From: a virus
Direction: 5' to 3' (one strand)
Length of the DNA: 33,627 nt
Virus record (IMG/VR): IMGVR_UViG_3300033143_003827
Location: 1-33,627 of that record
The notes beneath the pieces are model-generated. The model worked only from the letters and a program-made list of their open reading frames with translations, searched no databases and was not told the DNA's origin. Below are positions 1 through 32,152 of the stretch, one piece after another; the first letter of the stretch is position 1; the number at the start of each line of letters is the position of its first letter. The translations under genes and the position numbers were made by a program.

Positions 1-272
1 TCCCTCAAAACACTCTCCGCTGTGTCCTTAACTATTGGGGTTATATTAATTAAGAGGGCTTTGTGGGTATTGGTTTTTTTTACATCGAAGTTTAAGTCAT
101 GTACCATATTTTCTTCTTTAATCAGATTAACCTCAAGGGCCTCATCTATAGCTTTGTTTAATGGCTTTATGTGAGTTTTAAACCACCAGTCTATCTCATA
201 CCAAGAAACGCTTTTGTCATGCCAATTTACATATATCAGTTTGCCCCAATCTGGCCTTTCAATCTTTTTCAT
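1..272 (-). CDS. Hypothetical protein, 3' end beyond the window
   Basis: An open frame of 90 codons runs from an ATG at 272 off the left edge with no stop. The product starts MKKIERPDWGKLIYVNWHDK and is rich in Trp, Lys and acidic residues. An AAAGGA ribosome site lies 10 bases or so upstream. It is the last visible gene of the leftward group (1216 to 1), and lies 49 bases after the stop of the preceding small membrane protein. I do not recognise the family and no domain can be named. The ribosome site and protein-like composition make it likely to be real. Confidence 0.7.
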   Translation of the reverse strand, partial: MKKIERPDWGKLIYVNWHDKSVSWYEIDWWFKTHIKPLNKAIDEALEVNLIKEENMVHDLNFDVKKTNTHKALLINITPIVKDTAESVLR

Positions 273-321
273 AATTTTAGTATCCTTTTCAATCCCTATT
301 ATCCGCATGTATAAGACTTGC

Positions 322-498
322 TTATGGATAAATCAATTCATTAGTTTTCTTACATTTGTAAGTCGCATCGTGGATTTTTATCACTTGCTCACTCTCAACC
401 TTGTCTTGGAACTTTTCGTGGTCAAATAATGTAAAGCCAATTATGGCCATAAATAACAGCACTGTAAATATATATAAAATCGTTCCGTCTTTATCCAT
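322..498 (-). CDS. Small single-pass membrane protein (58 aa)
   Basis: The ATG at 498 is preceded by GGAGA on the minus strand and overlaps the last bases of the upstream 67-aa gene (stop at 491-493), which suggests translational coupling. Residues 6-25 (TILYIFTVLLFMAIIGFTLF) form one hydrophobic helix after a short charged N-terminus. A charged tail of about 30 residues with a single Cys follows. This is the shape of many small early phage membrane proteins, but no family is recognised. Topology and function are unknown. Confidence 0.7.
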   Translation of the reverse strand: MDKDGTILYIFTVLLFMAIIGFTLFDHEKFQDKVESEQVIKIHDATYKCKKTNELIYP

Positions 499-1216: not shown

Positions 1217-1597
1217 ATATAGACTCCTTTATATTGTTTGGTTTACTTGTACATATCACCATGCGCTGCGTTAAGCAAGAGATTATTTAGGCTCGGAGAG
1301 GGGGTTGACCTAATACATCCACGCGCCACCCTGTAGTTTGGGGGTACCCCCTTTGTATTATCTATGAGTATATGTCATCCCTATCCTTACATACATGCAT
1401 ATACTATGCCACGTGCTCACATCGAAGGAGAAGCATAGCCACCTTATGCATATAACATGCCAACTTAAGCATGCCACCAATTCATAAATAAATAAACATA
1501 TAATCACTAGTGCATACACGTACTTAACATAAATGTAATGTAGTATTAAATGTTATATTATTTCTTATCACCACCAAAACCACTACAATCAACCTCA
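1217..1597. other. Non-coding region between the leftward genes and the origin-like repeats
   Basis: No convincing gene lies here on either strand. It holds a 12-bp perfect palindrome GGGGGTACCCCC at 1340-1351 and, between about 1390 and 1480, several short related words (atgcatat, tatgccac, catagccacc, catgccaac, catgccacc). Both are plausible protein-binding sites. The right part becomes increasingly AT-rich towards the iteron-like repeats. Confidence 0.5.
1250..1278 (-). promoter_or_regulatory. Candidate promoter for the leftward genes
   Basis: Read on the minus strand, TTGCTT (1278-1273) is followed after 17 bases by TATGTA (1255-1250), about 34 bases before the ATG at 1216. The spacing is ideal for a sigma-70-type promoter but each box matches the consensus at only about three of six positions. 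Confidence 0.3.
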
Positions 1598-1948
1598 GCT
1601 AGGCACAGGAGGAACAGGCTAGGCACAGGAAAGGCACAGGTAAAAAAAATCCCTTGTGCCCAGATAAAACCTAGTAATACTAACCAGATGAGTCATATTC
1701 TCAGACCTAAGGTACTAAGGTACAGGCAAAATGGCCGAACAATATATATATATTTAAATATTATATATATTACAATATTACAATATTGTAATACAATAAA
1801 TAATTTTTTTTTTATATTAAAAGGCATATTTACTTGTACCTTAGTACCCTACACCCAATCTCCCCCAGATTAAAAGAGTCATATTATACTACTTACCTTA
1901 GGGCACAGGGTATTTTCAAAAGGCACAGGTAAAAACATTGCCTGTTCC
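1598..1948. other. Putative replication origin: iteron-like repeats around an AT-rich core
   Basis: Left cluster: gctaggcacagga occurs at 1598-1610 and exactly 20 bases later at 1618-1630, then aggcacagg at 1632-1640 and an inverted near-copy ccttgtgcc at 1652-1660. Right cluster: gggcacaggg at 1901-1910 and aggcacagg at 1921-1929. A 17-base direct repeat (aaaggcacaggtaaaaa) links 1630-1646 with 1919-1935. The word ggaacaggc at 1611-1619 recurs inverted at 1940-1948. Between the clusters, about 1739-1830 is almost pure A/T and is flanked by a 14-bp inverted repeat. Initiator-binding iterons beside an AT-rich unwinding element are the usual plan of plasmid and phage origins, and an SF3 helicase is encoded in the same arm. 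Function is inferred. Confidence 0.6.
1711..1848. repeat. 14-bp inverted repeat flanking an AT-rich core
   Basis: GGTACTAAGGTACA at 1711-1724 and its exact reverse complement TGTACCTTAGTACC at 1835-1848 face each other across about 110 bases that are nearly all A/T. Both arms contain a GGTAC/GTACC word. The arms could be paired binding sites of a dimeric protein at either end of a melting region, or could form a cruciform. Confidence 0.7.
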
Positions 1949-2017
1949 TAAACTCCAAAAAACCCCCACATTTTTTTTACATGATATTCCGCAGTATTTA
2001 CACGTTGTTAGAAAATA

Positions 2018-2036
2018 CTTTAGAAAAATGCTAAAG
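2018..2036. promoter_or_regulatory. Palindromic operator candidate
   Basis: CTTTAG (2018-2023) and CTAAAG (2031-2036) form a dyad separated by seven bases, ending six bases before the proposed -35 box of the rightward early promoter. This is where a repressor or activator of that promoter would bind; no binding protein can be assigned. Confidence 0.35.
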
Positions 2037-2041
2037 TTTTG

Positions 2042-2070
2042 TTGCAATGCACCGAAACATTTGTTACAGT
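2042..2070 (+). promoter_or_regulatory. Candidate rightward early promoter
   Basis: TTGCAA (2042-2047) and TACAGT (2065-2070) are separated by exactly 17 bases and lie about 60 bases before the first rightward ATG at 2131. Each box matches the sigma-70 consensus at four of six positions. Position and spacing favour it, but other AT-rich boxes nearby cannot be excluded. Confidence 0.4.
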
Positions 2071-2130
2071 GAAAACACGATCAACTTTGAATTTTAAAAC
2101 AAAACAATTTAAACCACGGGAGAGTAAACG

Positions 2131-2334
2131 ATGAGACAGATAACCATAGAGGTCATAGCCATATTAATAGTTCTAGCCACTGGCGTTAATACGATAGACG
2201 ACATAGCCATGAGTCATGCATTAGCTGACGAACGTACTGAGAGACTGGCTGAGTTAGAGCGCATCAACTCTAACCTGAACAGTAACCAGTACGAACTCGA
2301 TGAGAGCGAATTAGCTGAATTGAACACACACTGA
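2131..2334 (+). CDS. Small membrane-anchored protein (67 aa), first gene of the rightward arm
   Basis: GGGAG precedes the ATG. Residues 4-21 (ITIEVIAILIVLATGVNT) make one hydrophobic helix. The remainder is acidic and predicted helical (ALADERTERLAELERINS), perhaps a short coiled coil. It is the first gene after the origin-like region, so probably expressed immediately after infection. Its stop codon TGA is directly followed by the hammerhead ribozyme sequence, so self-cleavage would separate its mRNA from the downstream operon and leave it with a stable 3' hairpin. No family is recognised. Confidence 0.7.
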   Translation: MRQITIEVIAILIVLATGVNTIDDIAMSHALADERTERLAELERINSNLNSNQYELDESELAELNTH

Positions 2335-2389
2335 AGTCGAAACGCCCCGGAGGAGGGCGTCTTAGGCTAATGGCCTAACTGATGAGACT
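2335..2389 (+). ncRNA. Hammerhead ribozyme, type II (circularly permuted)
   Basis: All conserved core parts occur in the order of a type II hammerhead (open at stem II): stem II 3' strand AGTC (2335-2338); GAAA (2339-2342), whose last A begins stem III; stem III ACGCCC (2342-2347) with GGGCGT (2355-2360), 6 bp and a 7-base loop; the cleavage base C at 2361, preceded by the required U; stem I TTAGGC (2362-2367) with GCCTAA (2373-2378), 6 bp and a 5-base loop; CTGATGA (2379-2385); stem II 5' strand GACT (2386-2389). Every invariant core base is present. Predicted cleavage is between 2361 and 2362. The element starts right after the stop codon of the 67-aa gene and ends 23 bases before the next ATG. 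Cleavage itself is inferred. Confidence 0.9.
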
Positions 2390-2412
2390 AAACTGAAACT
2401 AGGAGAGAAAAT

Positions 2413-2700
2413 ATGAGTGAAATAAAAAGATTTAAAGTTAGATGGTATGACTCTTTAACAGGAGAGGGCGTTTTGAGAGAAGTTGACACTAAAAAAAGTT
2501 ATGTATTCTATGCTTGTAACTTTAAGCATGCAAATAGCATGTTTCCGCATCTTGTAACCAACGTGAGTCTTGAGAAAGGGCTAACAGTTTATGGCATAAT
2601 ACCTGAAGACATTTATACGCTGAGAGCTTGTGGTATTGATCAAATGCAATACCCGACTAAAGAGCTAATTATGGCTCACGATTATAAACTTGAGGAGTAA
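2413..2700 (+). CDS. Hypothetical protein (95 aa), faintly cold-shock-domain-like
   Basis: AGGAG lies in the leader just before the ATG. The first 60 residues (RFKVRWYDSLTGEGVL, then SYVFYACNF, then LEKGLTVYGI) follow the order of a cold-shock OB-fold: KWF-like strand, G-rich turn, FVH-like strand, G-V-F strand. The similarity is weak and the RNP motifs are not canonical, so an RNA or single-stranded DNA binding role is only a suggestion. Its mRNA would begin at the hammerhead cleavage site, giving a 5'-hydroxyl end. Confidence 0.7.
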   Translation: MSEIKRFKVRWYDSLTGEGVLREVDTKKSYVFYACNFKHANSMFPHLVTNVSLEKGLTVYGIIPEDIYTLRACGIDQMQYPTKELIMAHDYKLEE

Positions 2701-2704
2701 AAAC

Positions 2705-2760
2705 ATTAGGACGGGTAAAACCGTCCAAAATTTAACTAAATTAAAACTAGGAGATAAAGT
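2705..2760 (+). repeat. Leader repeat copy A with GGACGG hairpin
   Basis: GGACGG (2709-2714), loop GTAAAA, CCGTCC (2721-2726) form a perfect 6-bp hairpin. It is followed by tttaactaaattaaaactaggagat, which includes the ribosome site of the 162-aa gene. The same arrangement recurs before three later genes. There is no T-tract, so it is not an intrinsic terminator. Confidence 0.75.
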
Positions 2761-2761
2761 T

Positions 2762-3250
2762 ATGAGAGAAGAAACTATTACAATTAAACATTTTAAATTC
2801 GATGAATTAAATGAAAAGGCAAAGAGTAAAGCCATAGAAAAACTATGGGATTTAAACATAGAGTATGATTGGTGGGATTATATATATGAAGACGCAAAAA
2901 GAATTGGCTGTAACATCACTGAATTTGATATTGATAGAGGTTCTTTTTGTACTATGGACTTTTCCAATGATTATCTTATAGATATTGCAAAAAATATAAT
3001 TAAAGAACACGGTGAAGCTTGCAATACTTATAAACTAGCAAGTGAATATATTATAAATCACAAGAGTGCTTATGATGCGGAAACTGATTCTGTTCCAATG
3101 TCCCTAAATAGGCCCTTTATTGACTCTTTACAAGAAGAATATTTAAGCATGTTAAGACGTGAATATGAACATTTAACAAGTGAAGAAGCCATTGTTGATT
3201 CGATTGAATCTAACGAGTATGAATTCGACGAAAATGGAAACTTAAACTAA
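2762..3250 (+). CDS. Conserved phage protein of unknown function (162 aa)
   Basis: The start is set at the ATG at 2762, because the AGGAG of the shared leader lies just before it; an upstream in-frame start would translate the leader hairpin. The N-terminus FKFDELNEKAKSKAIEKL followed by DWWDYIYEDAKRIG is a pattern I recall from many phage and prophage proteins of unknown function (F-x-E-L..KAK..A then WW..VYEDA). It is strongly acidic at its C-terminus. It sits in the early group between two leader repeats. No enzymatic motif is visible. Confidence 0.8.
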   Translation: MREETITIKHFKFDELNEKAKSKAIEKLWDLNIEYDWWDYIYEDAKRIGCNITEFDIDRGSFCTMDFSNDYLIDIAKNIIKEHGEACNTYKLASEYIINHKSAYDAETDSVPMSLNRPFIDSLQEEYLSMLRREYEHLTSEEAIVDSIESNEYEFDENGNLN

Positions 3251-3253
3251 AAA

Positions 3254-3306
3254 CATCAGGACGGGTAAAACCGTCCAAATTTTAACTAAAACTAGGAGAG
3301 GAAAAT
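3254..3306 (+). repeat. Leader repeat copy B with GGACGG hairpin
   Basis: GGACGG (3259-3264), loop GTAAAA and CCGTCC (3271-3276) repeat copy A exactly, followed by a shortened AACTAAAACTAGGAGAGG segment carrying the ribosome site of the next gene. The bases before the hairpin (aaaacatcagg) are also shared. Confidence 0.75.
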
Positions 3307-3307
3307 T

Positions 3308-3589
3308 ATGAACTCAGATTATACAGATAAAGACGGGTTTGAAATGATAAAACGAGCTGAAAAGTGCGATATGTTTCAAATACCTTCAGAATTATTTGCG
3401 CACAATAGAGGCGTTGAGATTAGACTAGTACATATTGCGTATGACCACACTCACACTAAATCTGTGTATTTCGTAGACGGAGACAACGGGGACAGTTATG
3501 GCCAATTCAATACAATCGAAAAAGCTAGGGTTAAATTTGCGCAAATGATTAAACTAACTGAAAAAGAAAGGGGAGTTTTTGATGAATAA
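3308..3589 (+). CDS. Hypothetical protein (93 aa)
   Basis: The ATG at 3308 follows the AGGAGAGG of leader copy B. The product is soluble and mixed alpha/beta by appearance (EIRLVHIAYDHTHTKSVYFV in the middle), with two His near residues 46-49 that form no recognised metal motif. It is a small early-type gene without a recognised family. Confidence 0.65.
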   Translation: MNSDYTDKDGFEMIKRAEKCDMFQIPSELFAHNRGVEIRLVHIAYDHTHTKSVYFVDGDNGDSYGQFNTIEKARVKFAQMIKLTEKERGVFDE

Positions 3590-3617
3590 CACTCAATTAA
3601 TGCTAGCGAGTGTTTTT
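3588..3617 (+). terminator. Terminator-like hairpin after the 93-aa gene
   Basis: AACACTC (3588-3594) pairs with GAGTGTT (3608-3614), 7 bp around a 13-base loop, and the descending arm runs into a stretch of five T. It overlaps the stop codon of the 93-aa gene. It could be a weak terminator or attenuator within the early operon. Confidence 0.45.
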
Positions 3618-3628
3618 AATAAATAAAA

Positions 3629-3674
3629 CATCAGGACGGGTAAAACTTAACTAAACCAAAACAAGAGAGGAAAA
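3629..3674 (+). repeat. Leader repeat copy C, lacking the second hairpin arm
   Basis: aaaacatcaggacgggtaaaa matches copies A and B, but CCGTCC and the next bases are missing, so the sequence passes straight to cttaactaaacc and the GAGAGG ribosome site. The hairpin cannot form, as if by a short internal deletion. Confidence 0.65.
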
Positions 3675-3675
3675 T

Positions 3676-3936
3676 ATGAAACATACTAATGGACCATGGA
3701 AAATCAAAGATATTGACCCCAATTGGATTTATAAAGGCGCGCATTTAATATGCAAGGTCACTGATTCTAATGGGGATAAAAACATAACAGATAGAAATAT
3801 GGCCAACGCCCAGCTTATAGCCTCAGCGCCGGAATTATTGGAAGCACTTGAGCACCTAATACATTATGACTTTGGTGATTCTGTGGGTGCAATAAAAGCA
3901 AGAAATGCCATTAAAAAAGCAAAGGGGGAGAAATGA
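3676..3936 (+). CDS. Phage protein with ANAQLIASAPELLEAL motif, copy 1 (86 aa)
   Basis: A GAGAGG ribosome site precedes the ATG. The N-terminus HTNGPWKI and the C-terminal block ANAQLIASAPELLEALEHLI ending AIKKAKGEK are typical of a family of small proteins scattered through phages and prophages, whose function is unknown. A second member lies at 4228-4527 with the same C-terminal block, so this segment has been duplicated. Confidence 0.8.
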   Translation: MKHTNGPWKIKDIDPNWIYKGAHLICKVTDSNGDKNITDRNMANAQLIASAPELLEALEHLIHYDFGDSVGAIKARNAIKKAKGEK

Positions 3937-3949
3937 AAATACACTATAT

Positions 3950-4002
3950 GGAGCGGATATAACCGTCCAAAATTTAACTAAACTAAAACAAGAGAGGAAA
4001 AA
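3950..4002 (+). repeat. Leader repeat copy D with bulged hairpin
   Basis: GGAGCGG (3950-3956) pairs with CCGTCC (3963-3968), leaving one bulged G, so the pairing of copies A and B is kept although the sequence of the first arm and the loop (ATATAA) differ. It is followed by tttaactaaactaaaac and the GAGAGG site of the 87-aa gene. Confidence 0.65.
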
Positions 4003-4003
4003 T

Positions 4004-4267
4004 ATGAGTAAATTAGACGCCAAAAGTATTTTAAAAAGTAAATTAGGTAAAATTAAAACCGAAATGGAATTAACAAACCGTATTGCTAGGCTAGAGGCCA
4101 TAGTTTTAGAGTTATTACCTAACCCAGCTAAATGCGAAGCTTGTAATGAATTTGCTAAAAACATAGATGAAGAGGAATTTATGTCTATGACTGATTATTG
4201 TTTTGACTGTCAAAAGGACCTTGGAAAATGTATAAAAATATTAGTAGTGAAACTAAGCAACCAATAG
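4004..4267 (+). CDS. Small protein with a cysteine cluster (87 aa)
   Basis: The ATG at 4004 follows the ribosome site in leader copy D; a longer frame upstream would run through the leader and is rejected. The N-terminal half is helical and basic. Near residues 44-76 it has CEAC, then CFDC and a further Cys (QKDLGKC), consistent with a small zinc-binding unit. It may bind nucleic acid or protein, but this is inference. Its end overlaps the start of the following gene by 40 bases in another frame. Confidence 0.65.
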   Translation: MSKLDAKSILKSKLGKIKTEMELTNRIARLEAIVLELLPNPAKCEACNEFAKNIDEEEFMSMTDYCFDCQKDLGKCIKILVVKLSNQ

Positions 4268-4527
4268 CAGGCTATCATATTTCAGGATATGACTGGACTG
4301 CTATGATAGAAGTTCATTTGAGGCTGGCACACGATAAAAATAATAACTTGCAGTATGAATCCGAATCTAAAGCCAATGCCCAACTAATAGCCGCAGCGCC
4401 GGAATTATTGGAGGCATTGGAGCTATTGGTCGATGCACTTAACGAAAGCGGAGACATAGAAAATATTAGTTTGGATATGGGAGTGTCTATTTTAAATGCC
4501 ATTAAAAAAGCAAGGGGGGAGAAATGA
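4228..4527 (+). CDS. Phage protein with ANAQLIAAAPELLEAL motif, copy 2 (99 aa)
   Basis: This is a paralogue of the gene at 3676: it has the same C-terminal block (ANAQLIAAAPELLEALELLV ... AIKKARGEK), while the N-terminal part differs. AAAGGA about 12 bases upstream serves the ATG at 4228, which lies inside the end of the cysteine-cluster gene. Its stop overlaps the next start (ATGA at 4524-4527). Function is unknown, as for the family. Confidence 0.75.
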   Translation: MYKNISSETKQPIAGYHISGYDWTAMIEVHLRLAHDKNNNLQYESESKANAQLIAAAPELLEALELLVDALNESGDIENISLDMGVSILNAIKKARGEK

Positions 4528-4680
4528 ATAAAGCTGAATTAATAAGCAAAATCATTATAAGTTACACTGAAAATGAGGGCCAAGACGTTAAAGCTCTGAA
4601 AATTAGAAAACTTAGAATAAAACTAAACAATTTTACCGTTGACGAATTAAAATTATTTTTAAAAAACAGAAAAAACTAAA
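4524..4680 (+). pseudogene. Small ORF apparently broken by a frame change in an A-tract
   Basis: ATG at 4524 is coupled by an ATGA overlap and follows a strong gggggag. The frame reads MNKAELISKIIISYTENEGQ and continues to RIK, then meets a run of five A (4619-4623) and stops at TGA 4641-4643, giving 39 aa. In the +1 frame beyond the A-run the sequence reads LNNFTVDELKLFLKNRKN and stops at 4678-4680, which fits the first part far better. So either one A was gained, the sequence has an error, or translation shifts frame here. Confidence 0.5.
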
Positions 4681-4695
4681 CAAAGGGAGTTAAAA

Positions 4696-5028
4696 ATGAA
4701 GAGTTTAAAAGAATTACTAGACATATATAAGCCAGAAGTAATCATAAACAGCGTTGAAAAACACGAATTCGAGGGAGTTTTAAGAGATTCTTTAGGTTTT
4801 GACATACCTATTGACGGGTCTTTTGATGTTCACGCGAATTTTGATGAGGGTTACACTGAAAACATAGAGGTCTTTAAAAAAGGGACTGAGATTAAATTTG
4901 ATGGGAAAATTTGTGAGTTAGTTGGAGAAGAACTTGATAGTTGGATTGATTTTGACCATGAGGCCCAAGAAAATGCCATTGATAGAGCCTGTCATCTATA
5001 TGATCAAATGAAAGGCGAGGGATATTAA
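4696..5028 (+). CDS. Hypothetical acidic protein (110 aa)
   Basis: AAAGGGAG precedes the ATG. The protein is acidic and soluble (IDFDHEAQENAIDRACHLYD near the C-terminus). No motif or family is recognised. The next gene starts one base after its stop, so the two are probably co-translated. Confidence 0.7.
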   Translation: MKSLKELLDIYKPEVIINSVEKHEFEGVLRDSLGFDIPIDGSFDVHANFDEGYTENIEVFKKGTEIKFDGKICELVGEELDSWIDFDHEAQENAIDRACHLYDQMKGEGY

Positions 5029-5029
5029 T

Positions 5030-5299
5030 ATGAAACAACTAATTGTATTTATATTATTGACCTCATGCGCTCCAAAACAGAAGTCTGTTATAATTGAAGA
5101 GCCAGTTGAGAGTCTGTGTTTATCACTTGAAGAGAATATACCTTTAAAATGGTCTCAAGGTGCTGCTTTTGGGCCTGTACAAGTCGATTTATGCCAGTTT
5201 GAAAGTGATTACTGCTTATTATTTCAAGCCCTAGACACGGGTTTGAGTGCCCTAGACTGCTCGACTTCAATTTTTGAAGAAACTAGAACTGTACTTTAA
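5030..5299 (+). CDS. Small lipoprotein (89 aa)
   Basis: The N-terminus MKQLIVFILLTSCAPK has a short positive start, a hydrophobic core and a lipobox LTSC with Cys13 as the lipidation site. The mature part contains five further Cys, possibly disulphide-bonded in the periplasm. Being in the early region, it is more likely an envelope or superinfection-exclusion type factor than a spanin, but that is a guess. No family is recognised. Confidence 0.7.
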   Translation: MKQLIVFILLTSCAPKQKSVIIEEPVESLCLSLEENIPLKWSQGAAFGPVQVDLCQFESDYCLLFQALDTGLSALDCSTSIFEETRTVL

Positions 5300-5313
5300 C
5301 GAAAGGAAAAAAG

Positions 5314-5598
5314 ATGTTAGAAATTATAAAAACTATAGTCATGATATGTAATTTAAACAATACGAATGTCTCTACTTATGGCTCCAAATGGGCTGATGTA
5401 ACTCAATGCCAGGCCTTTTATTTGAATTGCGTTGAGAGTGAGAGATTAAATTATAGGAAAAAAGGCGTGAAAGGGAGCTACGAGACTCTTTCTCAAATAG
5501 GTCTGAATTATTGTATTCAAGACCTTCATAAAATTTTTAAAAATAAAGATAACAAGAAAGTAAAAGAGGAGAAAAAAGATGCAAAATATTCTATCTAG
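5314..5598 (+). CDS. Hypothetical protein with four Cys and a lysine-rich tail (94 aa)
   Basis: AAAGGA lies about 8 bases upstream of the ATG. The protein has a hydrophobic start (LEIIKTIVMIC), four cysteines and a strongly basic C-terminus (KNKDNKKVKEEKKDAKYSI). It follows the lipoprotein gene after 14 bases. It has no recognised family. The first 12 residues could be an atypical signal, leaving a small disulphide-bonded exported protein, but this is uncertain. Confidence 0.6.
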   Translation: MLEIIKTIVMICNLNNTNVSTYGSKWADVTQCQAFYLNCVESERLNYRKKGVKGSYETLSQIGLNYCIQDLHKIFKNKDNKKVKEEKKDAKYSI

Positions 5599-5737
5599 AC
5601 TTTTTTCTGTTGTGATCAGGCTGAGGTTTGCCTTGAATGCGTTTTATTTTTGGCTGAAAACCAGCAAAAAATGCCTTCAAGAGAGATTTTTCCTTAGGAA
5701 CAACGGGCTTGGGCGCTTTTTTTTCTTTATCAGCCAT
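5591..5737 (-). CDS. Small lysine/proline-rich protein on the opposite strand (48 aa)
   Basis: On the minus strand an ATG at 5737 preceded by AAGGAAG opens a 48-codon frame beginning MADKEKKAPKPVVPKEKSLL and ending in a basic tail. Its composition is protein-like. The plus-strand frame over the same bases reads as Phe/Leu-rich sequence typical of a shadow, so the minus strand is preferred, even though the plus frame also has a good ribosome site at 5570. It faces against the surrounding early genes. Function is unknown. Confidence 0.5.
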   Translation of the reverse strand: MADKEKKAPKPVVPKEKSLLKAFFAGFQPKIKRIQGKPQPDHNRKKSR

Positions 5738-5875
5738 GGTTCTTACTTCCTTTTGAGAGTATTGATAATTTATATGATGCTATCATATGTAAGCTATGAG
5801 CCAAAGTTTTTAAAGGAATATTTTAGTTATTGCCGCAACCACTCAGATTGTACAATTTTCTAAAAGGTTTTGACA

Positions 5876-7687
5876 ATGCGAGGGGTCATACTTAAACATA
5901 GAAACTCTAAAACATCAGGGGGAAACATTTCGGACTATAACAAAACAGATTACATCAAAGAATTTCCGAGCAGTATTGATGTTTTTGGCATTCAAGATAC
6001 CTGTCTCTTTTACAAGGACTTAGTCACTAGAAAACCAGAGAATAAAGAAGAAGAAGAGTATATTTTAAGGTATGTAGCCAGTTTCCCTCGCAATAATGAG
6101 TTCCAAAACCTAAGAAAAGAGTTCATTGTTTATGCTGATTTAACTAAAACTAGGCATATAGAGGCCTTAAGATCATATAAAAAAGACGGTTTAGCTCCAA
6201 CTTGCGACAAAATAGCAAGATCAAATAAAAGTTGTCTAAAATGTCCTCATTATATAGAGGACGATATACTAAGCCCTTTTGAAATAGTCGATGACCCCTT
6301 TGTTCAAATGATTTCTCAGGGTTTTAGGGCTGTAAACTTAAAGAAAAACCCGGTACTAAACAGGGAGCTTGTTAATTATTATAAAGAACAGACTGATTAC
6401 ATAGCCCTTTCCGATGCCTCTGGGATCTATTTATATAATGGCGCGTACTGGGAGCGTGGAAATAATATGGATATTGATGTTTTTTGCGAAGAAAATGTTA
6501 ACAACCCAGAGCCAAAAAACGCTGAGGTTCAAGAGTTTAAAGCCAAAGTCTTGAGAAATAATGTTGAGGACAGATCTTTTTTCGATAACAAAACAGGGTT
6601 TATCAATGTTGGAAATGGCATTTTTGATGTTGAGAAAAACAGGCTCTTACCTCATGATAAATCTTACGGGTTTACTTACAAAACTAATTTTGATTATAAC
6701 GGAGAGGCAACCTGTCCTATGTTTAGAAAGTTCTTATCTCAAGTGTTTATCAGCAATAAAGAAGTTATAAGTGTCACTCTTGAATTTATGGGAGCGGCGC
6801 TAGCTGGAGTTCCAAATAAAGTTCTGGAAACTAGTATGATGTTCTACGGTGATGGATCTAACGGAAAGTCAACCTTTGTGAACGTACTAAAACAAGTCTT
6901 TGGAGCCGCTTCTGTGTCTGATAAAACGATGACAGCCCTTGCAAAGCCAGAGCAAAGAGTAGCTCTTGAAGGTAAGATTTTAAACATTGGAGATGAAACA
7001 GCTAAGAACTCAATGCTGTTTTCAGATACTTTCAAACAACTAACATCGGGCTCTAAAATAGACGTAAAAAGGCTATACCATCAGCCATACGATATCGAGT
7101 CGAATGCTAAACTTATCTTTTTATGTAACGACTTGCCAAAAACTACAGATAAATCTTATGCGTTTTTGAGAAGACTTTTGATCATACCTTTTCAAGCCAC
7201 CTTTAAGGATGAGTTAGGCAATATAGACAGACATATAGAGTCCAAGTTGATCAAAGAATTGCCAGGCATTTTTAACTTGGTAGTTAAACACTATAAGATT
7301 TTAAAAAAGAACAAATTTGTATTTAGTAATTGTGAGGCTAGTGACAGCCTTAAAAAAGACTATGAGTTTGATAACGACAGTATGAAGCTCTGGTTTGACG
7401 ATAATTGTGACTTATTGAAAAATGGCTCTCATGAATATGAAGATGTCTCTTATAAAAAGAACGTACTTTATGACAACTACAATATGTTTTGTCAAAGCAT
7501 GGGCATACCACCATTAAACAACGCTAATTTCTTTAAGCAGATGAGAAAACAACTAGAGGAAAACTTCAAAGAAGTACATAAAAGAGATGATAATGGCCGA
7601 TATAGAGTTATCCATGGCCTTAAACTCTTATCTTTACATAAATATAAGCTAGAAAGATTACATCAAACAAGCCCGAGGAGATGGTGA
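5876..7687 (+). CDS. SF3 replicative helicase (D5/P4-type primase-helicase family)
   Basis: This is the phage/plasmid D5/P4-type helicase that unwinds DNA at replication. The ATPase has Walker A GDGSNGKST at residues 325-333, Walker B-like GDE around D373, motif C LCND with N418, and an arginine-rich FLRRLLIIPF just after. The D5_N-like region precedes the ATPase. Near residue 110 a C..C..CxxC group resembles a small zinc site. No complete archaeo-eukaryotic primase active site is seen in the N-terminal part, so primer synthesis may be lacking. The ATG at 5876 is chosen over a TTG at 5870 because AAAGG lies eight bases before it. It probably acts at the origin-like repeats at 1.6-1.95 kb. Confidence 0.9.
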   Translation: MRGVILKHRNSKTSGGNISDYNKTDYIKEFPSSIDVFGIQDTCLFYKDLVTRKPENKEEEEYILRYVASFPRNNEFQNLRKEFIVYADLTKTRHIEALRSYKKDGLAPTCDKIARSNKSCLKCPHYIEDDILSPFEIVDDPFVQMISQGFRAVNLKKNPVLNRELVNYYKEQTDYIALSDASGIYLYNGAYWERGNNMDIDVFCEENVNNPEPKNAEVQEFKAKVLRNNVEDRSFFDNKTGFINVGNGIFDVEKNRLLPHDKSYGFTYKTNFDYNGEATCPMFRKFLSQVFISNKEVISVTLEFMGAALAGVPNKVLETSMMFYGDGSNGKSTFVNVLKQVFGAASVSDKTMTALAKPEQRVALEGKILNIGDETAKNSMLFSDTFKQLTSGSKIDVKRLYHQPYDIESNAKLIFLCNDLPKTTDKSYAFLRRLLIIPFQATFKDELGNIDRHIESKLIKELPGIFNLVVKHYKILKKNKFVFSNCEASDSLKKDYEFDNDSMKLWFDDNCDLLKNGSHEYEDVSYKKNVLYDNYNMFCQSMGIPPLNNANFFKQMRKQLEENFKEVHKRDDNGRYRVIHGLKLLSLHKYKLERLHQTSPRRW

Positions 7688-7863: not shown

Positions 7864-9254
7864 TACCACCTCTCTGGGAGCATCAAAAAAAAGCAGTTGA
7901 TCTTTGCTTAGAGCAAAAGAGATTCGGCCTATTCTTTGAGATGGGGACTGGTAAAACCAGGACCATGGTCGAAGTAATTAAAAGAATTCAGGGCAAGGTT
8001 ATTATCTTTGCCCCTCCTATCGTCTTACAAAACTGGAAGGATGAGATCATAAAATATTGGCCTGAAATAGTCCCGGCTCAAATACTCATATTAACTGGGA
8101 CTGAAAGACAGAGATGTGATCAAATAGCGAATTTTGAGGGAAAGATCATAGTGACAAATTACCACTCAATGTTGATGGTGGCCCTTAAAGCATGGCTAAA
8201 CAGTATAAAGCCAGAGTGTTTAATTTTAGATGAGTCTCACAAATGTAAGTCCTTTAAGTCTAAAATATCAAAAGCAGTTCTCAACTTATCTTTAGGTGTA
8301 AAATACAGGTATCTTTTGACGGGAACTCCTGTGACTAATAGTCTTGACGATGCTTTTATGCAGTTTCAGATCATGAAACAAGATGTATTTAGATGTAGAA
8401 GTATAACAGAGTTTAGAAATATATATTTTAAGGACAGAAACTCAAATAACCCTCATATAAAATGGCCTAAGTGGGTGGCTACTTCGAGAGGCCTTAATGA
8501 AATACCAAAACTCATGGGTGAGAATTCCATGAGCGTGAGAAAGAGCGAGTGCCTTGATTTACCTGATTTAGTGAAACAAGAAGTCCGTTTTGAGCTATCA
8601 TCCGATCAAAAAAAGGCCTATAATGAGCTGAAAAAGGACTTTATTAGTTATATTAAGAATGAAAAAGAAGAAGAAAAAGAAGTTATCGCAACATCAGCCG
8701 CAGTCAAACTCATCAGACTCCAACAAGTCGCTTGCGGATTTTTTAAACCAGAGAATGAAGACCCCTCAGAGTTCAGAACAAACGAAAGAATCAAAGCCCT
8801 CTCAGAGATCATTGAACAAACGCCCCAAGATAGTAAAATTATCATATGGGCAACGTTCAAGAAGAACTACGAACAAATAAGAAAGCTATGCGAGTCATTA
8901 AAAATAGATTGCGTAGAAGTTCATGGCGGCGTTTCTTTGAAAAACAAGGGCGTTAATATAGAGAGGTTCAAAAGCGATCCGAAATGCAGAATTTTAATCG
9001 GTAATCAGAAAGCCGCTGGCATAGGCATTAATTTAATTGAAGCCAGTTACATGGTGTACTACTCTAAGAACTTCAGTTTAGAGGATGATTTACAAAGTGA
9101 GGCAAGAAACTATCGTGGGGGTTCAGAAATCCATGAGAAAATAACTAGAATTGATATCGTTGCAAACAAAACTTGTGATGAGTTAATTAATAAAGCATTA
9201 AAAAACAAAGAAGACTTATTAGAGTCTATCTTAACTATAGGAGATAAAATATAA
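7860..9254 (+). CDS. SNF2-like superfamily 2 helicase
   Basis: DNA-dependent ATPase of the SF2/SNF2 group. Motifs in order: a Q-motif-like HQ near residues 8-9, Walker A MGTGKT (28-33), DESH box at 124-127, TGTP motif III at 154-157, then a helicase C domain ending in GIGINL and QSEARNYRGG with Q412, R416 and R419 as motif VI. Such short phage SNF2-like proteins are common in replication/recombination regions and are thought to remodel forks or protein-DNA complexes. The start overlaps the preceding stop (ATGA). Confidence 0.9.
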   Translation: MIPPLWEHQKKAVDLCLEQKRFGLFFEMGTGKTRTMVEVIKRIQGKVIIFAPPIVLQNWKDEIIKYWPEIVPAQILILTGTERQRCDQIANFEGKIIVTNYHSMLMVALKAWLNSIKPECLILDESHKCKSFKSKISKAVLNLSLGVKYRYLLTGTPVTNSLDDAFMQFQIMKQDVFRCRSITEFRNIYFKDRNSNNPHIKWPKWVATSRGLNEIPKLMGENSMSVRKSECLDLPDLVKQEVRFELSSDQKKAYNELKKDFISYIKNEKEEEKEVIATSAAVKLIRLQQVACGFFKPENEDPSEFRTNERIKALSEIIEQTPQDSKIIIWATFKKNYEQIRKLCESLKIDCVEVHGGVSLKNKGVNIERFKSDPKCRILIGNQKAAGIGINLIEASYMVYYSKNFSLEDDLQSEARNYRGGSEIHEKITRIDIVANKTCDELINKALKNKEDLLESILTIGDKI

Positions 9255-9460
9255 TGGACAGACAAGTAAACGTAGAGGAAAACAGCAGCAACTACAAAGA
9301 ACTATACCTTCAAAGGAATGGGGAGTGTCTTGAGCTGAGGAAAGAGATTGATAATAATGACTGCGTAGTAGCTAGAATGACAGAGCAAAACTATAGACAA
9401 AACATACAACTACAGGTTTATAAAGAAATGGTTGACAAGTTGTTAGATAAAAGGTTATAA
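9254..9460 (+). CDS. Small helical hypothetical protein (68 aa)
   Basis: The start overlaps the helicase stop (TAATG). The protein is Gln/Asn/Glu-rich and helical (ELYLQRNGECLELRKEID), likely a coiled coil, with no recognised family. It is co-expressed with the recombination genes. Confidence 0.65.
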   Translation: MDRQVNVEENSSNYKELYLQRNGECLELRKEIDNNDCVVARMTEQNYRQNIQLQVYKEMVDKLLDKRL

Positions 9461-9493
9461 TAATAGAAACAAAACAAACATAAGGAGTAATGA

Positions 9494-10285
9494 ATGAGTA
9501 AAAAACTAGAGACTAAAATGGCAATGTCAGACTACAGAGGTCATGAAAACACTTCTGCGAGTGAGTTAAAATTTGCCTTAAAATCAGCAGCCACATATAA
9601 AGCCTATAAGGACGGTAAGATTATCTTTAAATCTACGGCGTTAGATGTTGGAACAGCGGCCCACGCTGCTATATTAGAACAGGATTATTCACAATATGTA
9701 GAAGGTCCTGATGTTAAAACGAAAGCCTCTAAAGAGTGGAAAGCTTTTGTCGCAGAAAATGAGGACAAGGTAGTTTTAAAGCCTGATGAAATGACTATGA
9801 TCAAAGAGATGTTTAGTGGATTTTTCAGTCACAAAATAGCAAAGAAAGTGATTAATGGTGGTAATCCTGAGGTTTCTTTATTTGCTGAGGGATTCAAAGC
9901 TAGGTTTGATTACTTTGTTCAAAGTGAGGAGGGTGATTATATAGTTGATTATAAAACAGCTCAATCTGCTGATCCTAAAGATTTTCAAAGGTCTGTTTTT
10001 AAATACGACTATGACTTAAGTGCTGCCCACTATATGAATATGGCAGAGCGAGTGACTGGCAAAAGGCCTTTAGACTTTATTTGGATTGTCCAAGAAAAAA
10101 CAGCTCCATATTTGGTCAATGTATTCAAAATATCTGAACAAGTACTTCAAAATGGACAAGCTAAAATAGCTATAGCAATGAAAAACATTAACGAAGCCAA
10201 AGAGAGTGGCATCTATAAAGGTTATTCTGAAGAAATAACTGAAATAGATTTACCTTCATGGGCCTCAGTCAGAGAGGAGTACTAA
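9494..10285 (+). CDS. RecE-like PDDEXK exonuclease
   Basis: The product resembles the C-terminal exonuclease domain of RecE / exodeoxyribonuclease VIII. Visible motifs are GTAAHAAILE with H57, a conserved Asp in ARFDYF (D139), and the D-x-K pair VDYK (D152, K154), followed by Q156 and the conserved YxxQ-like AAHYM helix. The 263-aa length fits a stand-alone domain. The enzyme would resect double-stranded ends 5' to 3', leaving 3' tails for the Bet-like protein encoded two genes downstream. AAGGAG precedes the ATG. Confidence 0.88.
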   Translation: MSKKLETKMAMSDYRGHENTSASELKFALKSAATYKAYKDGKIIFKSTALDVGTAAHAAILEQDYSQYVEGPDVKTKASKEWKAFVAENEDKVVLKPDEMTMIKEMFSGFFSHKIAKKVINGGNPEVSLFAEGFKARFDYFVQSEEGDYIVDYKTAQSADPKDFQRSVFKYDYDLSAAHYMNMAERVTGKRPLDFIWIVQEKTAPYLVNVFKISEQVLQNGQAKIAIAMKNINEAKESGIYKGYSEEITEIDLPSWASVREEY

Positions 10286-10286
10286 T

Positions 10287-10496
10287 ATGGGACGAGTAAT
10301 ATTAAATCTTGGATCCACATGTTTCTCTAAAGAAGAGTGGGCCGAAATGAAAAGACTTGGATATAGTCGGGCCGACATCAGGTTGACTATAGTAGATGCT
10401 GGAGTTGGAGAGCTAGACTTATTAATTGGAGGGCATTTAGCCCAAGAAGAAGTGGAAAAAAACTATAAAGAAAACTCTGAACGCGAGGAGGAATAA
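10287..10496 (+). CDS. Hypothetical protein (69 aa) between exonuclease and annealing protein
   Basis: Starts one base after the exonuclease stop, preceded by GAGGAG, and ends one base before the annealing protein gene. The product begins MGRVILNLGSTCFSKEEWAE and is acidic at its end. It lies inside the RecE/Bet pair, so an accessory recombination role is possible. No family is recognised. Confidence 0.65.
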   Translation: MGRVILNLGSTCFSKEEWAEMKRLGYSRADIRLTIVDAGVGELDLLIGGHLAQEEVEKNYKENSEREEE

Positions 10497-10497
10497 T

Positions 10498-11256
10498 ATG
10501 GGACAAGTAGTTGAAGTTAATAACGCTTGGTTATCTGAAGAGAAAATTAATCTACTAAGACAGACTTATGCTCAAGATCTTGGAGACAAACAGTTTGAAT
10601 TATTCTGTCATATAGCTCAAAAAATGGACTTAGATCCTATAAATAAAGAGATATATGGGATGGTTTTAGCTAAAAAACTAGTTATAGTTGTAGGCATTGA
10701 TGGATTTAGAAAGACTGCTCATAAAACTGGCGACTATATGGGTATGGACAAGACAGATATTGTAAGGGATGATGAAACTAATAAGATAATCTCTGCATCT
10801 TGTACTGTCTATAAAAGGGTCCATGGTGAGAAGTGTGCCTTCCATGCTGAGGTTATATTCTCTGAGTACAACAAGGGCCAAGGCAACTGGGTTAAAATGC
10901 CTCAGACTATGATAAGCAAGGTAGCCGAGAGTCATGCTCTTAGAAAGGCTTTTCCGGCACTGAGCAATGTTTACACTCCTGAGGAGCTAGACAAGCAGGG
11001 AGCTGACTTTGAAAGCGATAGAGCAAAAACTTTAACTGACAGGTTCGTAGGAGAGCCTGAGGTGAAGGCTAAAAAATATATGGATGAAGTAGAGCTTGAG
11101 CCTGAAGATATAGAGATTGAAGTAAAAGAAGAAATTAAAGAGCCAAAAAAAGTAAAACCTGAGGAGGTAAAAAATGGTAAACAAAGTAATGTTAGTGGGC
11201 CGATTAGGAAAACAGCCAGAACTAAAAAGCCTAGACAACGACAACAGCGTAGCTAA
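10498..11256 (+). CDS. bet: Phage recombination protein Bet (RecT/Red-beta family)
   Basis: Single-strand annealing protein. Recognisable Bet-family stretches are [36 protein letters not shown] in the middle, and the [16 protein letters not shown] segment that corresponds to the conserved R/K-AxxxxxLRxAFP region. The C-terminal 60 residues are charged, as usual for the family. It pairs with the RecE-like exonuclease two genes upstream and SSB downstream. GAGGAG precedes the start. The last 83 bases overlap the SSB gene in another frame. Confidence 0.9.
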
Positions 11257-11527
11257 TTTTAGTGTAGCTACTAGCGAAAAATGGGTTAAAGATGGCGAAA
11301 AACAGGAGGCTACAGAATGGCATCGGGTAGTATGTTTTGGCAAGCTAGCCGAAATCTGCGAAAAATACCTCGATAAAGGTTCTCAAGTATATGTTGAAGG
11401 TAAACTTCAAACAAGATCTTGGGAAGATAAAGAGGGGGCCAAAAGGTATACTACTGAAATACTAGCTAAAAGTGTTCAGTTCTTATCAACTAAGCCAAGC
11501 GGGGAAAGTAACGAAGAAAAATTCTAA
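11174..11527 (+). CDS. ssb: Single-stranded DNA-binding protein
   Basis: An OB-fold [20 protein letters not shown], then [43 protein letters not shown] are all classic positions of bacterial and phage SSBs. At 117 aa it is shorter than bacterial SSB; the linker is reduced and the tail ends NEEKF rather than the usual acidic tip ending in Phe (DDDIPF), though the final Phe and acidic residues remain. GAGGAGG lies before the ATG. It overlaps the end of bet, so the two are probably translated together. Confidence 0.93.
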
Positions 11528-11544
11528 AACATAGGAGCGATATA

Positions 11545-11787
11545 ATGATTAAGAGTAGATCGAATGAAGAAGAAGAAGCCGGGAATGATGTTTTTATCCG
11601 AGGAATAACTCATGACAACTGGACCTTCATAAAGAAAAGGTCCAAAGAAACAGGTTATTTAGTAGGTGAGTATTTCAATGCCTTGATAGAGCAGGAGATG
11701 GAAGAAATTGAGCAGCACGAAAAAAAACCAGCTAGAAAAAAGCTACGAAAAGCAGTTCGTAAAAAGACTAAAACTGCTACCGAATAG
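11545..11787 (+). CDS. Hypothetical basic-tailed protein (80 aa)
   Basis: AGGAG precedes the ATG. The product has an acidic start, a centre (DNWTFIKKRSKETGYLVGEY) that recalls ribbon-helix-helix proteins, and a strongly basic tail (KKPARKKLRKAVRKKTK). DNA binding is plausible. The end overlaps the VRR-NUC gene by 80 bases in another frame. The family is not established. Confidence 0.65.
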   Translation: MIKSRSNEEEEAGNDVFIRGITHDNWTFIKKRSKETGYLVGEYFNALIEQEMEEIEQHEKKPARKKLRKAVRKKTKTATE

Positions 11788-12034
11788 CTTTTGGCCAGAC
11801 AAGCCCATTGCACAAGCCAGGGGCATAGCCGACAGGATTGGTTGTGTAAATGGAATTTATGTATATCTAGAGTTTAAGAGAGAAAAGAAATCATTTGTAA
11901 GCAAGGTCCAACTTGCTTTTTTAATTAAGGCCAATCAAGCCGGAGCATTTGCCAGGATAGTCTGCCCAGAATCAGGAGCAGATGTTTATGAAGATATAAA
12001 GAAAATAGCTTATGGAAAGGTGAGGGGCTTATAA
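11708..12034 (+). CDS. VRR-NUC domain nuclease
   Basis: A compact 108-aa VRR-NUC (PD-(D/E)XK superfamily) protein. Visible active-site pattern: E14 in the first helix, D42 in RGIADRIG, and E55-x-K57 in LEFKRE, followed by QLAFLIKANQAGA. Small phage members of this family may act as structure-specific nucleases on recombination or replication intermediates. No ATG is available; the frame opens at a TTG (11708) with GGAG ten bases upstream, inside the preceding gene. It is the last gene of the replication operon. Confidence 0.85.
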   Translation: MSSTKKNQLEKSYEKQFVKRLKLLPNSFWPDKPIAQARGIADRIGCVNGIYVYLEFKREKKSFVSKVQLAFLIKANQAGAFARIVCPESGADVYEDIKKIAYGKVRGL

Positions 12035-12078
12035 AGCCCCCCATGAAGAGAAGTCCATCCATGGACAGACGATTGTCT
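12024..12078. terminator. Hairpin cluster between converging genes
   Basis: GGGGCTT (12024-12030) with AAGCCCC (12034-12040) makes a strong 7-bp hairpin overlapping the VRR-NUC stop. It is followed by GTCCA/TGGAC (12053-12066) and AGAC/GTCT (12067-12078). They lie where the rightward replication operon meets a leftward gene ending at 12088. No clean T-tract follows any of them, so termination is likely but not certain. Confidence 0.4.
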
Positions 12079-12087
12079 TCCTATATT

Positions 12088-12330
12088 TTAATGTACATCT
12101 GAGAGAGAATCAATATCATCCTCAAAAACATCAAGATCTTGTTCTATAGCGCATGTAATAAATGCTTGAACTGTCGTCAGGAAGTCGTTACTATCCAACA
12201 TCTTTTCGGCTTCGACTATCAGGGTCACAGTCCTTTGAGAAGAGTCATACTTTAACCTAATGCTTACTTCATCATTATCCTCTAAACTCATTCTCACCAT
12301 CCCTGTAAATAAGTTAATGTATATATCCAT
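12088..12330 (-). CDS. Hypothetical acidic protein (80 aa)
   Basis: A lone minus-strand gene. The sequence is beta-strand-like (EVSIRLKYDSSQRTVTLIVE) and ends in an acidic helix (LDVFEDDIDSLSD). The ATG at 12330 has only a poor ribosome site; internal ATGs at 12300 and 12291 follow GGG or GGTGAGA and are alternatives. It is transcribed away from the lysis genes and shares a divergent promoter region with them, which fits a small regulator. No family is recognised. Confidence 0.55.
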   Translation of the reverse strand: MDIYINLFTGMVRMSLEDNDEVSIRLKYDSSQRTVTLIVEAEKMLDSNDFLTTVQAFITCAIEQDLDVFEDDIDSLSDVH

Positions 12331-12353
12331 AAACTTAACACGTAGTTACGTAA

Positions 12354-12382
12354 AATGTAATCTTTATGTATAGCATTGACAA
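12354..12382 (-). promoter_or_regulatory. Promoter for the leftward 80-aa gene
   Basis: On the minus strand TTGTCA (12382-12377) and TACATT (12359-12354) are 17 bases apart, five and four of six matches to the sigma-70 consensus. The start at 12330 would lie about 24 bases beyond the -10 box. The -35 lies within the palindrome shared with the opposite promoter. Confidence 0.5.
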
Positions 12383-12401
12383 TAATTGTCGGTTATATAG
12401 T
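12376..12401 (+). promoter_or_regulatory. Promoter for the first lysis block
   Basis: A perfect TTGACA (12376-12381) faces rightward. The best -10, TATAGT (12396-12401), sits at a short 14-base spacing; weaker boxes fit at 16-18 bases. Transcription would begin close to the ATG at 12407, so the first message may have almost no leader. Confidence 0.4.
12378..12390. promoter_or_regulatory. 13-bp palindromic operator GACAATAATTGTC
   Basis: GACAAT and ATTGTC are exact reverse complements around a single A. The dyad overlaps the -35 boxes of both divergent promoters (TTGACA rightward and TTGTCA leftward), so a bound dimer would block both. No repressor can be assigned from the sequence; the adjacent 80-aa gene is a candidate by position. 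Confidence 0.55.
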
Positions 12402-12406
12402 TAAAC

Positions 12407-12517
12407 ATGATGAAGAAACGTAGAATATTTGCTTTAGAGCTAGCTTTGTTTATAATAGTTTTGACTTATTTTTTGATAGGGGTAGGGTACACTTTCGCGT
12501 CATGGGAGGCCCGATGA
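12407..12517 (+). CDS. 36-aa single-pass membrane protein, possible holin-type
   Basis: From ATG 12407 (or 12410) the frame reads MMKKRRIFALELALFIIVLT and on, a basic N-terminus and one hydrophobic helix at about residues 8-30, stopping at 12517. The stop overlaps the transglycosylase start (ATGA, 12514-12517), strong evidence that it is translated. No Shine-Dalgarno is seen upstream, in line with a nearly leaderless message from the promoter just before it. Small one-helix proteins before a muralytic enzyme are often holins or lysis regulators; that role is inferred. Confidence 0.6.
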   Translation: MMKKRRIFALELALFIIVLTYFLIGVGYTFASWEAR

Positions 12518-12975
12518 TTTTTTTACACTCTTTGATCGGGCTTCTCATGGTATTTTCATTTGGAGCAAAAGCCGATATAATTGAAGACTTAATTATAGCT
12601 GAGGCTATAGTCCAGAAAGTACCTGTTCAAGTCGCCTTAGCAATAGCTAAGACCGAATCAAGTATGAAGCAATTTAAAATTAGATATGAAGAAAACGTAA
12701 AAGACTTCAGTATAGGGGTATTTCAGGTCAGAACTGCTACAGCGAGAGAAAAATGCGGGGTTAAAACTATAAAGAACTTGATTAAATTGAGAGTGAATAT
12801 TAGGTGTGGTGTGACCTATATTAAGTATCAAATGACTAGATATAAAGATATAAGGCACGTAATTCTGGCTTACAATTCGGGGAGCCTGAGATATTATAAG
12901 GGCGAGTATTTAAACCAAGGTTATTTATTGAGAGTTTATAAATATATAAATGAAAACAAAGGGAGTAATAAATGA
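12514..12975 (+). CDS. Secreted lytic transglycosylase (SLT family)
   Basis: Cleaves the glycan strands of peptidoglycan. The ATG at 12514 is chosen over 12502 because GGGAGG lies just before it and it couples to the upstream stop. A Sec signal (MIFLHSLIGLLMVFSFGAKA, cut likely after residue 20) leads into an SLT fold: catalytic Glu48 in AKTESS, then SIGVFQVRTATA, NIRCGVTYIKYQ, and ILAYNSGS. These are the family motifs I-IV. The 153-aa length is minimal for one catalytic domain. It may act in lysis or in local wall opening, and it sits with two lipoproteins in one operon. Confidence 0.9.
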   Translation: MIFLHSLIGLLMVFSFGAKADIIEDLIIAEAIVQKVPVQVALAIAKTESSMKQFKIRYEENVKDFSIGVFQVRTATAREKCGVKTIKNLIKLRVNIRCGVTYIKYQMTRYKDIRHVILAYNSGSLRYYKGEYLNQGYLLRVYKYINENKGSNK

Positions 12976-13262
12976 AAACAATACTAATAATAAGTCTGCT
13001 TTTTTTAGCAGCGTGTAGTTCACCAAAGAAGAAAAAAACATATGTAGCAAGTCAACCAATTGAAGCCATTGACAACGCGTTTTTCAATGAGACTTTAAAC
13101 CAAGCACTTAAGGAAACTTTAGAGCTTGAAGAAAAGCGCAAGAGTAAAGTAGCGCGTGATTTAGCCAGAGAGCGAGCCGAGTTAGATTGTGAAATCTTTG
13201 AAACAGAGTTCACTGATTATGAACTCACTTATGATAAACAAGATGCAAGGATAAAGAAATGA
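12972..13262 (+). CDS. Lipoprotein with helical mature region (96 aa)
   Basis: The start overlaps the transglycosylase stop (ATGA). MKTILIISLLFLAACSSPKK has a classical lipobox LAAC with Cys15. The mature part is Lys/Glu-rich and helical (NQALKETLELEEKRKSKVAR). A spanin or an outer-membrane anchored partner of the lysis genes is possible, since it follows the transglycosylase, but no spanin family signature is visible. Confidence 0.75.
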   Translation: MKTILIISLLFLAACSSPKKKKTYVASQPIEAIDNAFFNETLNQALKETLELEEKRKSKVARDLARERAELDCEIFETEFTDYELTYDKQDARIKK

Positions 13263-28825: not shown

Positions 28826-28958
28826 ATTTTGTCCTCCAAGTAATTATTAATAAATTGCATATCTTCGCTGAACTACCCGAAAAACGGATTCAATTTGTCT
28901 AGACCTTAAACATCGGGATCTTGCGATTTGTCCGACTAGAATCTAAGAAAGGAATATA

Positions 28959-28981
28959 CCCCTAAAGTGAAATTTTAGGGG
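28959..28981 (-). terminator. Hairpin between scaffold and capsid genes
   Basis: CCCCTAAA (28959-28966) and TTTAGGGG (28974-28981) form an 8-bp stem around a 7-base loop just after the scaffold stop. Read on the minus strand it is followed by TATATTCC, a weak T-tract. It may end part of the upstream transcript or stabilise the capsid message's 5' neighbour. Confidence 0.45.
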
Positions 28982-28996
28982 CATAAATTTTAAATG

Positions 28997-31750: not shown

Positions 31751-31759
31751 CTTGTTGCC

Positions 31760-32140: not shown

Positions 32141-32152
32141 ACAATGCCCCCT

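Follow-up and report, generated by a model that had tools for sequence, protein, structure and literature searches.

Bacterial and phage hammerhead ribozymes of type II, including their clustering around single phage genes, were described in 2011 (PMC3088659), and Perreault et al. already proposed at that time that phage hammerheads process messages (PMC3088659). Tandem natural arrangements of hammerheads cleave in vitro and one set of them also in E. coli, and a pseudoknot is present in the majority of the published type II hammerheads but is not required (PMC3088659). Hammerheads of the RiboJ type, placed before a ribosome-binding site, mostly cleave with an efficiency of 0.84-0.94, and uncleaved mRNA was modelled in the same study as decaying twice as fast (PMC7536230). 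As late as 2023, what self-cleaving ribozymes do in phages and why ribozymes cluster were still called unknown (PMC10085705).

The whole stretch of DNA analysed here, referred to as the window, is a virus record of 33.6 kb with podovirus-like genes. Judged from its sequence, the segment at 2335-2389 on the + strand is almost certainly a type II hammerhead ribozyme of a compact, pseudoknot-less form. It shares with the published type II hammerheads (PMC3088659, RF02276) the core, a stem II that is open while stems I and III are closed, and a position between phage genes, where such elements often occur several to a gene cluster. It differs from them in having no pseudoknot between loop I and the 3' tail, a stem-loop I of 17 nt instead of 22-24 nt, and a stem II of 4 bp without the A bulge. 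The catalytic core is the same as in type I and type III hammerheads (RF00163, RF00008), of which the element is a circular permutation that opens at stem II rather than at stem I or III. Twister-P5 (RF02684), which we encountered in two contigs (L023 and L093), is likewise a self-cleaving RNA in phage gene clusters, but its fold is unrelated to the hammerhead. The closest functional likeness is to RiboJ, an engineered hammerhead plus hairpin, in which a hammerhead before the ribosome-binding site trims the 5' leader and a hairpin lies near the new 5' end (PMC7536230). Whereas RiboJ is engineered and stands directly after promoters, the window element is natural, lies between two genes of one operon, and would also define the 3' end of the upstream message. 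Type II hammerheads between phage genes are thus not new (PMC3088659), and we do not claim a new class. What we offer is a regularity, namely a stop codon abutting the ribozyme, a ribosome-binding site just after it, a single strand per cluster, and hairpins on both products; the window copy, on a phage contig of 33.6 kb, is a clean example.

Parts of the element and its relation to covariance models

The features of the locus, with the basis of each in brackets, are as follows.

2131-2334, + strand: gene 1, predicted small protein of 67 aa (ORF list)
2335-2389, + strand: whole compact type II hammerhead (custom covariance model, 66.8 bits; RF02276, 30.9 bits, sub-threshold)
2335-2338, + strand: first arm of stem II, AGUC, open-ended, C2338 being position 11.1 (sequence, fold)
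2339-2341, + strand: core G12 A13 A14 (sequence; invariant in alignment A1 of relatives)
2342-2360, + strand: stem-loop III, ACGCCC 2342-2347 / GGGCGU 2355-2360, 6 bp, 7-nt loop (sequence, fold)
2361-2362, + strand: predicted cleavage site, C17 (2361) / U1.1 (2362) (position homology to the hammerhead core)
2362-2378, + strand: stem-loop I, 17 nt, TTAGGC 2362-2367 / GCCTAA 2373-2378, triloop AAU (sequence, fold)
2379-2385, + strand: core C3 U4 G5 A6 U7 G8 A9, CUGAUGA (sequence)
2386-2389, + strand: second arm of stem II, GACU (sequence; outer pair covaries GC/AU in relatives)
2401-2405, + strand: Shine-Dalgarno AGGAG of gene 2 (sequence; leader similar to those of the early gene boundaries that follow)
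2413-2700, + strand: gene 2, predicted protein of 95 aa (ORF list)
2466-2476, + strand: segment GGGCGUUUUGA within gene 2 that may act as an anti-core (pairs with ribozyme strand 2337-2347 over 11 bp, one of them G-U)

As RNA, the element reads AGUC-GAA-ACGCCC(CGGAGGA)GGGCGU-C/UUAGGCU(AAU)GGCCUAA-CUGAUGA-GACU, with the slash at the predicted cut. With the core consensus for type II hammerheads taken from Perreault 2011 (PMC3088659), every position of C3 U4 G5 A6 N7 G8 A9 G12 A13 A14 A15.1 U16.1 H17 is present, A2342, U2360, and C2361 included. All core-adjacent pairs are found as well: 10.1-11.1 as G2386-C2338, 1.1-2.1 as U2362-A2378, and 15.1-16.1 as A2342-U2360, the last lying within stem III, whose corresponding inner pairs covary in relatives. 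Stem I extends to 7 bp, the 6 bp listed above plus a terminal U2368-G2372 wobble. Stems I and III are loop-closed and stem II is open, which is the type II permutation, and both the RF02276 model and the custom covariance model align over the full length of the element. The 17-nt stem-loop I with a U-N-A-N-G loop, the 4-bp AGUC/GACU stem II, and A2334 opposite A2390 place the element in the compact group described below. A pseudoknot between loop I and the 3' tail is absent from the window element, where the longest match is 2 nt. Folded alone, the element has the hammerhead three-way junction as its minimum-energy structure, and its folding energy is unremarkable (z -1.6). The original prediction had placed AGTC, GAA, the stems, CTGATGA, and GACT correctly to the base. 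Its claim that all invariant core positions are present in type II order is borne out by the sequence, the fold, and an independent covariance model, and its predicted cut position at 2361/2362 agrees with core homology.

A search with the Rfam Hammerhead_II model had been proposed as a check in the original prediction. RF02276 matches the element from end to end, but at 30.9 bits against a gathering score of 37, and a default Rfam scan of the window returned nothing at gathering scores; we note that the gathering threshold is a curation cut-off and carries no structural criterion. A covariance model built from 56 compact phage relatives with the window left out scores the element at 66.8 bits (E 1.4e-19), and the element is the only match of this model in the window. 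Shuffling the window gives an expected count of 0 for the fixed pattern of core plus arms. In the alignment of the 56 relatives, 97.8% of base-pair cells form pairs, and two-sided changes occur at 13 of 17 pairs, far above slid controls, in a set that was script-chosen for pairing, which biases these counts towards structure. The comparison with relatives that had also been proposed thus yielded covarying stems in 56 unrelated phage copies, but no homologous early region. A pattern scan of a viral contig collection, in which the core was fixed and no stem was demanded beyond the fixed letters, is the cleaner test because the covariation set was selected for pairing: both stems I and III are formed in 134 of the 144 distinct pattern matches listed, as compared with 0.5% for shuffled spacers. 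Together with the independent model and the covariation, this result upholds the type II assignment, and at the level of sequence the resemblance is beyond doubt greater than chance.

Compact and long forms of phage type II hammerheads

After a structure filter, at least 159 unique viral hammerheads remain, and these fall into two clean forms. The long form accounts for 102 of 159 among the matches listed; it has a stem-loop I of 22-24 nt and a stem II of usually 3 bp, and 97% of its copies, versus 31% in the shuffled control, have a pseudoknot of 4 bp or more. The compact form makes up the other 57 of 159 among the matches listed, with the window copy counted. Its stem-loop I is 17 nt long in 51/57, with a U-N-A-N-G loop in 36 of those 51, and a pseudoknot is no commoner in it than in the control (10.5% vs 9.2%). 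Stem II is exactly 4 bp in 55/57 compact copies and is followed by a conserved A opposite A in 42/57. The window copy has this same arrangement, which settles the doubt raised in the original prediction over an imperfect extension of stem II beyond its four pairs.

The Rfam cut-off separates the two forms: it is reached by 0 of 29 compact members in 20 loci and by 19 pseudoknot-class copies in 20 long-form loci. The failure of the window element at this threshold therefore reflects the library model and not the sequence, and published counts that rely on the cut-off are probably too low, since the whole compact form falls below it. Phage PaP3, a published hammerhead phage, was considered as a possible carrier of the compact form and rejected (best model score 9.9 bits); it serves as a negative control. 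Compact hammerheads are also common in contigs of Candidatus Gastranaerophilales and of rumen and gut bacterial MAGs (L123-L173), where two copies often lie ~360 nt apart in the same orientation. The literature searched, outside which lie most subscription papers and all supplementary alignments, yielded no account of either the compact form or the stop-codon rule presented below.

Position of the ribozyme between genes

In the window, the TGA stop of gene 1 at 2332-2334 abuts the ribozyme, so that the element begins on the next base, as had originally been observed. The gene 1 protein has no Pfam or PHROG match, and the gene 2 protein has no family match in Pfam, PHROG, viral contig, or phage protein searches. 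The early cluster runs rightward from 2131 and includes primase, helicase, exonuclease, and RecT genes, while the virion genes run leftward; the portal protein is ~45% identical to Pelagibacter phage portals. A sigma-70 promoter scan of 1500-6000 found sites no more numerous than in shuffles, and the label "early operon" hence rests on gene order and strand. Searches for relatives of the early region, with the gene 2 and primase proteins among viral contigs, with blastn of 1900-2900 in annotated phages, and with the gene 2 protein in phages, found none. One contig (L214) encodes a helicase relative of 41% identity and has no compact hammerhead. Phages with a compact hammerhead have no more in common with the window than distantly related replication or virion proteins, from which it follows that the element recurs in unrelated genomes and is not inherited with one gene.

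The position of the ribozyme is shared among these unrelated phages, in which the order stop codon, ribozyme, Shine-Dalgarno, ATG recurs. The stop of the upstream ORF lies 2-10 nt before C11.1 in 124 of the 159 viral copies listed (3% for random positions), and a start codon usually follows ~20 nt downstream. A hold-out set of viral loci gave a stop in 24/31 and an ATG within 50 nt in 28/31. Frequently in the long form, the stop is a TAG that overlaps the first guanine of stem II. Where a locus has multiple copies, all of them are on one strand (27/27 loci), and in the same loci the median gap with a hammerhead is 82 nt versus 2 nt for the other co-directional gaps, which indicates that the added length is mostly the ribozyme itself. 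Diverged type II hammerheads form same-strand arrays of 8, 7, 5, and 4 copies in L085, L031, L078, and L118, respectively, most of them within the gaps that separate small genes. In L023, a Twister-P5 ribozyme (1070-1124) occupies the same slot between stop and Shine-Dalgarno one gene downstream of a compact hammerhead, and this suggests that cleavage in the intergenic gap is what is kept, whichever fold supplies it. Another Twister-P5 (L093, 917-972) shares its contig with a type II hammerhead.

Hairpins are also found at later gene boundaries of the window, two of which are listed here.

2709-2726, + strand: hairpin GGACGG-GUAAAA-CCGUCC at the following gene boundary; its distance to the Shine-Dalgarno, 22 nt, equals that of ribozyme stem I
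3259-3276, + strand: second copy of the intercistronic hairpin, 17 nt before the Shine-Dalgarno

Three later early-gene boundaries have this hairpin, which differs from that of the ribozyme (GGACGG..CCGUCC plus a variant), at a distance of 17-23 nt from the downstream ribosome-binding site, as compared with 22 nt for stem I. The intercistronic modules at 2709-2726, 3259-3276, 3625-3646, and 3949-3968 consist of the hairpin GGACGGGUAAAACCGUCC followed by an A-rich leader and a Shine-Dalgarno; one copy is without its 3' arm and one is bulged. The leaders after the early-gene hairpins and the ribozyme are alike at 70-77%. The window phage thus seems to place a hairpin, an A-rich leader, and a Shine-Dalgarno at these early genes.

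Proposed function and alternatives

The explanation that we favor, with a probability of roughly two in three, is that the ribozyme cuts the early transcript at the junction of genes 1 and 2, thereby separating their lifetimes and insulating the gene 2 leader. The hammerhead would fold behind the polymerase on an early polycistronic RNA and, by homology, cleave at 2361^2362. The gene 1 message would then end in the stem III hairpin plus one base with a 2',3'-cyclic phosphate, and the remaining early message would start with a 5'-hydroxyl stem I that leaves no unpaired base at the 5' end, followed by a ~34-nt leader with the ribosome-binding site and then by the gene 2 start codon. In this way, the gene 1 message would be parted from the rest, each piece would have its own lifetime, and the gene 2 leader would be freed of upstream sequence; at this first boundary, the ribozyme would turn the leader hairpin into a genuine 5' terminus. 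The engineered insulator RiboJ acts in this manner (PMC7536230). For the window copy, the path that would lead from cleavage to stability or insulation is an inference. The original prediction had likewise proposed a cut between the first gene and the rest, and the slot position fits this proposal and recurs across unrelated phages, with the cleavage itself being predicted.

Two other roles at this boundary were considered and rejected. The idea that cleavage directly gates the ribosome-binding site of gene 2 was set aside since the predicted accessibility of the Shine-Dalgarno is similar in the uncleaved and cleaved RNA, which favors message separation and leader insulation over translational gating. 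Stem III as a transcription terminator was set aside as well, having no U-run and not being listed in a consensus scan. Other points count against the favored explanation. The loop pseudoknot gives speed to other type II hammerheads, and the compact form is without it. In addition, a competing fold with gene 2 sequence is predicted to be up to 8 kcal/mol more stable in longer context.

The ribozyme might instead be active and have no role in gene expression, as a portable self-cleaving motif that spreads among phages and is tolerated after stop codons. The neighboring genes are unrelated among carrier phages, the window has a single copy, and the post-stop slot is the only place that would leave a 55-nt structured RNA untranslated, all of which would fit such a motif. 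We nonetheless consider it unlikely, because diverged copies keep intact cores and compensated stems, up to 7-8 of them stand on one strand in one gene cluster, and two different ribozyme folds occupy the same slot in L023. Moreover, compact phage genomes, with their median gap of 2 nt where there is no hammerhead, would rarely keep 55 idle bases.

The competing fold suggests a further reading, in which the hammerhead is gated: the segment at 2466-2476 would pair with core strand 2337-2347 and block cleavage unless the RNA has been cut first or ribosomes on gene 2 occupy the segment, so that cleavage would depend on transcription speed or gene 2 translation. The 11-bp complement, which lies 76 nt downstream of the ribozyme, is worth -18.7 kcal/mol, a strength reached in 0 of 5000 shuffles; leaving the ribozyme's own sequence aside, no stronger one exists on the window's + strand. 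With the segment included (2290-2480 and 2320-2480), the competing fold is predicted to be better by 6-8 kcal/mol. This advantage falls, however, to ~1 kcal/mol in the longest stretch folded (2250-2600), the local hammerhead is expected to fold first, the complement was noticed post hoc, and we found no relative in which to check conservation of the segment. Anti-core segments are also not enriched in 155 other hammerheads, and we therefore rejected them as a general device of the family. Gating is, on balance, distinctly improbable, and from the modelled folds the complement may be either chance or a local brake on cleavage. It is a longer shot still that compact hammerheads are a widespread, Rfam-invisible insulator in the slot between stop and ribosome-binding site of phage operons and that the window copy is additionally gated via gene 2.

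A circular or spliced RNA, made by cleavage and religation or by pairing with a second ribozyme, is very improbable: hammerheads are able to ligate and paired copies exist elsewhere, for example in the Gastranaerophilales contigs, but the window has only one copy, and Perreault et al. sought such products and found none (PMC3088659). Least credible of all is a chance or decayed resemblance with no ribozyme activity, for which the sub-threshold Rfam score and the ordinary folding energy could be cited, but which is opposed by the 66.8 bits of the independent model, the unchanged core, and the equal failure of all 29 compact relatives at the Rfam cut-off.

Some minor observations on the window complete the analysis. 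A sub-threshold match to freshwater-2 RNA (RF02980; 17.9 bits vs 49.9) was dismissed as a chance resemblance to a pair of hairpins ahead of a start codon. L213 (IMGVR_UViG_3300033153_006708), a contig from a different sample, is 100% identical at 1-473 and 8124-13029 to window positions 1-473 and 28722-33627 and joins the right end of the window to its left end via ~7.65 kb of further sequence; this join makes it probable that the genome measures roughly 41 kb and that the window covers only part of it. Finally, two neighboring small early genes contain 52-nt stretches that are 87% identical (3802-3853 and 4372-4423, with the motif AQLIASAPELLEALE), which, from their sequence, likely arose by gene duplication.
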